Shown in pieces: positions 3,948 to 5,717 of a DNA stretch of 64,000 bases. Origin of the DNA: Candidatus Bathycorpusculum sp. (GTDB lineage: Archaea > Thermoproteota > Bathyarchaeia > Bathyarchaeales > Bathycorpusculaceae); contig WRJX01000104.1 in assembly GCA_009778385.1 (NCBI GenBank), positions 62,001 to 126,000 of the forward strand, given 5' to 3'. Below the pieces are notes generated by a model. That model was given only the letters and a program-made list of their open reading frames with translations. It was not told the DNA's origin and ran no database searches. Within the stretch, counting starts at the first letter, position 1. The number at the start of each line of letters is the position of its first letter. The position numbers and the translations under genes are program-made.

Positions 3948-5717
3948 CTATGGAAATCTTTGTGGATCAGTATCGATGTCAACTATTGTTGCAACGTTTG
4001 AGGCAAGTGCATTGTTTACTGCAGTGGGTAACTCTTCAGGGTGTGTGACTTTTATGCCGTAGCCGCCTGCGTGTTCTGCGAATTTAGCAAAGTTGAAGTC
4101 ATGTAATTCTGTTTGCCAGCTTTGATATCTTTCAACTTTTTGTTCTTGCATAATCATAGCTAGACTTTTGTTGTTGATTACAAACACTTTAATGGGCATT
4201 TGGTATTTTAACGCTGTAAGAAAGTCGCCTAAGACCATTGTTAAACCGCCGTCACCAGTGATACAGATATTTTGCCGTTCAGGATATGCTAAGGCAGCCG
4301 CCAGTGCACTAGGCAATCCAAAACTCATAGTTGCCAAGTTTCCACTCATAACTATCTTTTGGGAATGTTTCATCTGAAAGTTTCTGCCAAACCACCAACA
4401 GTTTTCACCTACATCAAGTGATATTACCGCATTGTCGGCAAGTTTCTCAGATAATACTTTCATTATGTAGGGTGCTCGGATAGGCTTAGCAATTGCATCG
4501 GCTTCTTTGGCAAGTTGATTTAGCCAATCTTGTTTAAGCTGTGTAATCTCTTGTATGTATGCTGTGTTATGTTTTTCTAAAACTTTAGCGGCAAGTTTAG
4601 GGATAAGTATAGCACTGTTTCCCAAAAGTCCAACTTCAACGGGATAACGGCGAGCAATCATAAGAGGGTTAATGTCAATTTGAATCATACGTTTTTTGGG
4701 AATCATACTTAGATCTGCAAATGATGAACCAATTACAATTAACAGATCAGTTTTATCCACAAGCTGACCAGCAGCTGTTGAACCTATTCCGCCATGACAA
4801 CCAACATACAAGGGCTCACTATCATCAACTATGTCTTTACCCTTGAAAGTTGAAACAATCGGAGCTGAAATTTTTTCTGCGAGCCGCAAAAGTTTGGTTT
4901 TTTGTCCTCTAGCACCTAAACCGATAATTATAACTGGACGACTTGCCGAATCAATCACTTTTGCGGCTTTTTCAATAATTACTTCCTCTTGACCGTAAGC
5001 AAAATTAGGCATACGCTCCTCAAAAGGCAAAATCTCCATATCACAAGGCAGTTTTTGAACATCATTAGGAATTCCAATGTGAGCAACACCCCTATCAACA
5101 AGTGCGTGTTTAACAGCTAAGGTTGCAAGCATCGTTGTTTGCTCAGGTGACATTAAAATCTTGTTAAAAACGCTTATAGGCTCAAAAAAGGCATAATGGT
5201 CAATTTCCTGTAGCGACCCATGGCCAATTTGTTTTCTTGCAACCATACCCGTTAAAACCAAAACTGGTGAATAGTCAAGTTTAGCGTCATACAAACCTGT
5301 TGCAAGATTAGTTGTGCCCGGTCCAGAAATGCTTAACACAGCAGCTACATGGCTTGTTAATTTACCATAAGCCGATGCCATAAACGCAGCTGTTTGTTCA
5401 TGGCGAACTTGCAAGTATTTAATTTTGCCATTACTTTTACGAATTGCATCTACAACACCTAACGTTGATGTACCAGGAATACCAAAAACGTACTGCACCC
5501 CCCATTCTACAAGTTGATTAACCAAAACTTCAGACACCGTATGAGAAACTTGCTTTTCTTCAGTAGCACCCTTTTGGTTTTCTGCAAGCATCACAAAAAC
5601 AGTTCTTGGGGCACCACATATTGGACAAACCCATCCCTTAGGTAAATCAACAAACTTTTTACCCTCCTTAGATTCATCATAAACATAATTACAAATAGTG
5701 CATCGATATTTAGCCAT
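3948..5717 (-). CDS. rubredoxin domain fused to a thiamine-pyrophosphate enzyme (acetolactate synthase/pyruvate oxidase superfamily)
   Basis: A 589-aa two-part protein. Residues ~1-45 form a short rubredoxin with two CxxC knuckles (CTIC and CPIC, with LPKGWVCPIC between loop and knuckle) that should hold one Fe(SCys)4. Residues ~58-589 are a complete ThDP-dependent enzyme. The Pyr domain carries VFGIPGTSTLGVVDAI and the catalytic Glu in RHEQTAAF. The central domain carries RPVIIIGLGARGQ. The PP domain has the GDG...NN metal/ThDP motif (ITGDGGLTM about residue 487, INN about 515). It resembles acetolactate synthase, pyruvate oxidase and sulfopyruvate decarboxylase relatives. No regulatory small subunit lies nearby. 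The rubredoxin suggests that electrons are passed on after substrate decarboxylation, which is inference. Confidence 0.85.
   Translation of the reverse strand: MAKYRCTICNYVYDESKEGKKFVDLPKGWVCPICGAPRTVFVMLAENQKGATEEKQVSHTVSEVLVNQLVEWGVQYVFGIPGTSTLGVVDAIRKSNGKIKYLQVRHEQTAAFMASAYGKLTSHVAAVLSISGPGTTNLATGLYDAKLDYSPVLVLTGMVARKQIGHGSLQEIDHYAFFEPISVFNKILMSPEQTTMLATLAVKHALVDRGVAHIGIPNDVQKLPCDMEILPFEERMPNFAYGQEEVIIEKAAKVIDSASRPVIIIGLGARGQKTKLLRLAEKISAPIVSTFKGKDIVDDSEPLYVGCHGGIGSTAAGQLVDKTDLLIVIGSSFADLSMIPKKRMIQIDINPLMIARRYPVEVGLLGNSAILIPKLAAKVLEKHNTAYIQEITQLKQDWLNQLAKEADAIAKPIRAPYIMKVLSEKLADNAVISLDVGENCWWFGRNFQMKHSQKIVMSGNLATMSFGLPSALAAALAYPERQNICITGDGGLTMVLGDFLTALKYQMPIKVFVINNKSLAMIMQEQKVERYQSWQTELHDFNFAKFAEHAGGYGIKVTHPEELPTAVNNALASNVATIVDIDTDPQRFP

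Follow-up and report, generated by a model that had tools for sequence, protein, structure and literature searches.

A gene on the minus strand of the window, that is, of the whole stretch of 64,000 nucleotides from Candidatus Bathycorpusculum sp. that was analysed, encodes a rubredoxin-pyruvate oxidase-like fusion protein of 589 amino acids (positions 3948..5717). The protein is predicted to be a soluble pyruvate oxidase-like ThDP/FAD enzyme that carries its own electron acceptor, an N-terminal rubredoxin, and a probability of about 0.6 is given to this reading. The fusion of a rubredoxin and a ThDP enzyme, proposed in a preliminary description of this DNA, is confirmed; the open reading frame begins with ATG and fits these coordinates exactly. 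The rubredoxin domain (residues 3-41, 5595..5711, minus strand as for all features below) scores 35.4 bits against Pfam PF00301 (cut-off 23, E 1.1e-8), and the two N-terminal CxxC knuckles described earlier are found as C6/C9 and C31/C34, the putative Fe ligands. The loop between them is indeed shorter than usual, with 21 residues between the pairs (CxxC-x21-CxxC) versus the canonical 29. A short loop has precedent because solved rubredoxins of 45-46 amino acids (6nw0, 6rxn) are among those that match the domain. All four cysteines are retained in 70 of 70 readable rubredoxin domains of relatives, fused or split, which places the fusion far beyond chance; the spacing is x21 in 38 of these, x29 in 30 and intermediate in 2. 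A linker at about residues 45-58 (5544..5585) is modelled with low confidence (pLDDT <50 at residues 46-56), as expected of a flexible segment, and 20-27 amino acids separate the fourth cysteine from the ThDP domain in fused relatives.

The remainder of the chain is the complete ThDP enzyme that had been recognised from its catalytic Glu, GDG and NN, all of which are present. Its three Pfam domains (TPP_enzyme_N, M and C) cover residues 60-176, 248-372 and 435-581. The PYR domain (PF02776, 5190..5540) contains the catalytic Glu107 and the Q170-E171 motif, the central, putative FAD-binding domain (PF00205, 4602..4976) contains G266xG268, G309, G330, F333 and D348, and the PP domain (PF02775, 3975..4415) contains GDG at 488-490, NN at 515-516 and a pyruvate oxidase-type Glu525. 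Only eight residues follow residue 581, and there is no membrane-binding tail. When 88 relatives are aligned with PoxB, the Lactobacillus plantarum enzyme LpPOX and acetohydroxyacid synthase (AHAS), Glu107, Gln170, the GDG Asp489 and Glu525 are invariant (88/88), and it is from these residues that ThDP chemistry is predicted.

Placement in the acetolactate synthase superfamily, the label first given to the enzyme part, stands as far as superfamily membership goes, but the nearest relatives are pyruvate oxidases and not acetolactate synthase proper. The top NCBIfam profile is the pyruvate oxidase PRK08611 (499.5 bits, cut-off 742), with spxB at 354 (cut-off 638) and PRK09124 at 350 (cut-off 792); acetolactate synthase profiles score lower than the top profile (PRK08322, 343.9 bits; TIGR00118, 332.9 bits). 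The closest solved structures are E. coli PoxB (3eya, E 3e-80) and L. plantarum pyruvate oxidase. An AlphaFold2 model built from 18 family members (pLDDT 74.5, pTM 0.75) retrieved PoxB 3eya first in Foldseek (E 7e-42), with C. glutamicum PQO next. Against the pyruvate oxidase-like reading, no NCBIfam equivalog cut-off is reached, so that every named pyruvate oxidase is missed; the P-Y of the FAD segment is replaced; and the model is only of moderate quality.

A look for FAD-site residues in the central domain shows the glycines and the Asp retained and one segment changed. Scored against the FAD contacts given in the PoxB annotation, GxG (266-268), G309 and D348 never vary, 87 of 88 relatives retain G330, and position 333 is Phe or Tyr throughout. 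Segment 274-278 of PoxB is unlike that of classical pyruvate oxidases in the whole clade, where S/A-x or R-x stands in place of P-Y (277-278); AHAS, which binds FAD, likewise lacks this P-Y. Binding of FAD by the enzyme part is thus likely, judged from its residues. All 88 relatives end 7-15 residues past the position of PoxB residue 525, compared with 47 in the 572-residue PoxB chain, and the membrane route of PoxB is therefore absent. With the cut-offs missed and this tail lacking, the enzyme part would work as a pyruvate oxidase outside the membership of PoxB, SpxB and LpPOX.

The same electron path could serve another 2-oxo acid, from which the rubredoxin would collect the electrons. Variation at the position of PoxB F112 (F, I, L, V, T or M), Met or Asn in place of F465, and a tree in which the clade is separate from classical pyruvate oxidases are consistent with a different substrate, as are the POR_N-type genes (pyruvate:ferredoxin oxidoreductase-type) already present in the window genome. 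Against this, Gln170 and Glu525, which are common to pyruvate oxidases, do not vary, and pyruvate is the substrate of all the closest characterised relatives. A substrate other than pyruvate is regarded as unlikely.

An electron-carrying role of the N-terminal domain is supported best by lineages in which an unrelated redox domain occupies its place. A plasmid of Mycobacteroides abscessus subsp. bolletii encodes the same ThDP enzyme with an N-terminal Rieske [2Fe-2S] domain (PF00355, 45 bits; L065 3842-5743). With this protein as query, the Rieske-ThDP architecture is found on plasmids of Halorubrum, Haloferax, Halorarius and Salinirubellus (L159-L162) at 53-54% identity over 99-100% of the length, and four further Rieske-ThDP fusions occur in genomes of the phylum of Methanoculleus. 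All Rieske versions have the complete CPH...CPWH ligand pattern (CxH/CxxH) and sit at the same N-terminal place as the rubredoxin. In the tree they form one clade (100/100) that adjoins the rubredoxin lineages, and the Rieske, rubredoxin and carrier-less lineages group together (100/97), separate from classical pyruvate oxidases and from AHAS. The branching order within this joint clade is compatible with either rubredoxin or Rieske coming first. Among the best 30 matches listed from the plasmid collection no bacterial rubredoxin fusion was seen, a result that is informative only where a match reaches the N-terminus. Two haloarchaeal plasmids encode a PAS sensor histidine kinase immediately upstream of the Rieske fusion (L160 1749-2840; L162 1733-2812). 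In some methanogens a kinase-like cluster likewise sits immediately upstream of the carrier-less enzyme (L113, L127, L130, L131), and its member in L111 appears HisKA-like by eye.

Rubredoxin folds readily take Zn, and the rubredoxin-like domain could instead be a structural or zinc knuckle used for docking or oligomerisation, attached to an enzyme that is non-redox or linked to O2 or flavin. The short x21 loop and the existence of rubredoxin-less members fit such a role. The replacement of rubredoxin by Rieske favours electron transfer and is hard to explain by a purely structural N-terminal domain, since a structural knuckle would not predict it. Full-length canonical x29 rubredoxins are present in fused and split methanogen versions (79 bits in one split protein), and rubredoxins as short as 45-46 amino acids have solved structures. 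A structural knuckle is considered improbable.

The enzyme could also be a carboligase akin to acetolactate synthase, switched by a rubredoxin that senses redox state or oxygen. This would agree with the superfamily membership and with the scores of AHAS models, of which acolac_lg reaches 332.9 bits, below the AHAS cut-off of 538. The position of Glu525 (PoxB E469, Lp E483), however, is Glu in 88/88 relatives and Trp in 4/4 AHAS proteins, AHAS forms a distant clade, and the window genome has a separate AHAS gene on another contig, where it adjoins an isopropylmalate/citramalate-synthase-like gene. A carboligase with a sensor switch is very improbable, and the preliminary description's own doubt, that the enzyme might be a plain acetolactate synthase, is answered by the same three findings. 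On these grounds, identity with acetolactate synthase was rejected.

The question whether the fusion recurs is answered by genomes of two groups, Bathyarchaeota and Halobacteriota, and a chance or assembly artefact that joined two unrelated reading frames is refuted by full-length fusions of 65-76% identity in 20 independent public records and of about 45-48% in methanogens. When one genome was scanned for each species, 22 loci were found, of which 20 are full-length fusions in Bathyarchaeota-type records (19 labelled Candidatus Bathyarchaeota and one labelled "bacterium"). The other two are a fusion of full length (~47% identity) in a Methanoculleus MAG and, in Methanoregula, a rubredoxin that does not represent the rubredoxin-ThDP fusion. 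Within the window's phylum, 12 of 300 genomes, its own counted, have the full-length fusion, and relatives at E <= 1e-90 occur in 74 of 345 genomes of the phylum of the Methanoculleus MAG, many Halobacteriota (methanogens) among the holders of the fusion. A unique or chimeric fusion was rejected on this recurrence in independent genomes. Of the clade members at the loci examined, 58 are fused, 10 are split and 20 lack a rubredoxin. The last, 20 of 88 without a rubredoxin fused or directly upstream, count against the proposed reading and indicate that the domain is dispensable for the fold. Two genomes of the Methanoculleus phylum (L067, L068) carry Bathyarchaeota-type fusions at 62-64% identity that are nested in the Bathyarchaeota clade, and either gene transfer or mis-binned contigs could account for them. 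The frame of the fusion is broken in one Bathyarchaeota record (L047) and in one Halobacteriota genome (L120/L166), through either a sequencing error or decay of the gene. A CDGSH + 4Fe-4S mono-cluster protein of 211 amino acids is encoded directly upstream of the divergent (~37%) rubredoxin-fused group (L110, L119, L120).

Separate genes for the two domains in relatives, which had been named as evidence against a meaningful fusion, do exist, yet in a form that leaves the idea standing. Ten methanogen genomes encode the rubredoxin in a reading frame of its own, of 65-67 amino acids (79 bits against PF00301 for the single one scored), the last 20 nucleotides of which overlap the ATG of the ThDP gene; both the overlap and the start are conserved in 10/10 of these genomes, and the fusion recurs elsewhere. 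The split members form one clade nested among fused proteins. The overlap suggests coupled production of rubredoxin and enzyme, and a pattern of fused and adjacent genes is a classical sign of two parts that work together.

In the mechanism proposed for the soluble pyruvate oxidase-like enzyme, pyruvate would add to ThDP and lose CO2, and the hydroxyethyl/acetyl intermediate would then reduce FAD. FADH2 would pass its electrons one at a time to the Fe(Cys)4 centre of the rubredoxin, held on its flexible linker of 20-27 residues, and the products would be acetate (or acetyl phosphate) and CO2. The reduced rubredoxin would dock on an external acceptor, here most plausibly a flavodiiron protein or rubrerythrin that removes O2 or peroxide. 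FAD occupancy, pyruvate as the substrate, Fe and not Zn in the rubredoxin, the direction of electron flow and the terminal acceptor are predictions, as are all steps after decarboxylation. Oxidative decarboxylation of pyruvate has a very low potential. Rubredoxins lie between -50 and +50 mV, as quoted in PMC10502027, and transfer to the rubredoxin would be strongly downhill.

The window genome offers candidate clients for such a carrier, flavodiiron proteins and rubrerythrins being typical partners of rubredoxin. Its A-type flavodiiron protein gene adjoins a rubrerythrin gene (L200; G000:C101:55370-57007), a pair likely to serve O2/peroxide defence, and a second rubrerythrin is also encoded; desulfoferrodoxin is absent. 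No PF00301 rubredoxin of the window genome other than the fused domain exceeds the Pfam cut-off, and this also applies to all 14 other sampled congeners with the fusion, except for one with an extra weak match. Stand-alone rubredoxins are found in 1/15 members of the genus with the fusion versus 6/16 without it (Fisher p = 0.08), a tendency only towards complementarity. Fusion-less congeners can have a protein of ~225 amino acids that carries a rubredoxin at its N-terminus and another, short CxxC...CxxC knuckle at its C-terminus (L212, L213). A TrxB-like NAD(P)H-FAD reductase gene is divergently adjacent in ~13 distinct Bathyarchaeota loci (about half), often followed by FlpD/ferredoxin, NfnA-like and NfnB-like genes. 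The window copy lacks this neighbourhood and has no redox neighbour in an operon, and the TrxB-like protein was for this reason rejected as a central operon partner.

Several lineages encode a glutamate-synthase-like FMN protein (PF01645) beside the pyruvate oxidase-like enzyme or not far from it (L053 4424-5914, L161 8288-9991, and L163, L112, L136, L138, L140, L141 and L147). The N-terminal domains of the two agree: each has a rubredoxin in the Methanoculleus MAG, each has a Rieske domain in haloarchaea, and neither has a carrier in the rubredoxin-less clade. Rubredoxin-bearing PF01645 copies are common in methanogens, where they are mostly non-adjacent. A wider proposal can be put forward tentatively, at somewhat less than even odds: a whole branch of archaeal pyruvate oxidases, to which one bacterial outlier belongs, may have swapped quinone or O2 for a plug-in N-terminal one-electron carrier, rubredoxin in anaerobes and Rieske in aerobes, exchanged with lifestyle, and together with the carrier-matched glutamate-synthase-like FMN neighbour it may form an undescribed two-enzyme redox module.

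The recurrence of the fusion and the Rieske domain that oxygen-loving archaea have at the same place suggest a pyruvate oxidase that wires its electrons to a built-in carrier and not to oxygen or the membrane. If this is true, a built-in one-electron iron carrier would be a third acceptor class beside those of quinone- and O2-linked pyruvate oxidases, and strict anaerobes would gain a ThDP/FAD route from pyruvate to rubredoxin that feeds O2 and peroxide defence. The natural swap of rubredoxin and Rieske on one enzyme could also serve as a ready-made system for studying the exchange of redox modules between anoxic and oxic lineages. A study of Bathyarchaeota places poxL among oxygen-dependent genes and pathways, as a sign of microoxic life, in a text from which the term rubredoxin is absent (PMC7110647). 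That poxL probably includes the same gene family, and if it is the rubredoxin-fused family, the oxygen-dependent reading would need revision.

Rubredoxin fusions to other enzymes are known, and fusion to a pyruvate oxidase is without description in the literature searched; a full-text search, with subscription papers mostly outside it, returned no paper on a rubredoxin- or Rieske-fused pyruvate oxidase. Among characterised enzymes, the pyruvate:quinone oxidoreductases E. coli PoxB and C. glutamicum PQO (3eya, 3ey9, 9ev3-9ev6) are the best matches in sequence and fold. They have in common with the window protein the three ThDP-enzyme domains, the catalytic Glu, the active-site Glu and the glycines and Asp of the FAD domain, whereas the window protein adds an N-terminal rubredoxin, lacks the C-terminal membrane peptide, has S/A-x for P-Y and falls below the family cut-offs. 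The O2-using pyruvate oxidase of L. plantarum (1pow, 4fee) shares the GxGAR motif of the FAD domain and the active-site pattern, but has no rubredoxin, uses O2 as acceptor and has a longer C-terminus. The class III hybrid cluster protein of the methanogen Methanothermobacter (7e0l) has an N-terminal rubredoxin on a flexible linker, in some lineages only (PMC10502027); this rubredoxin matches the window domain, while the enzyme, with its Fe-S-O hybrid cluster, is unrelated. Flavodiiron-rubredoxin-reductase fusions such as FDP_F of Clostridioides difficile (PMC6033852) and that of Trichomonas (PMC9364112) likewise join rubredoxin to redox partners for electron delivery, although theirs serves a diiron site and involves no ThDP oxidase.
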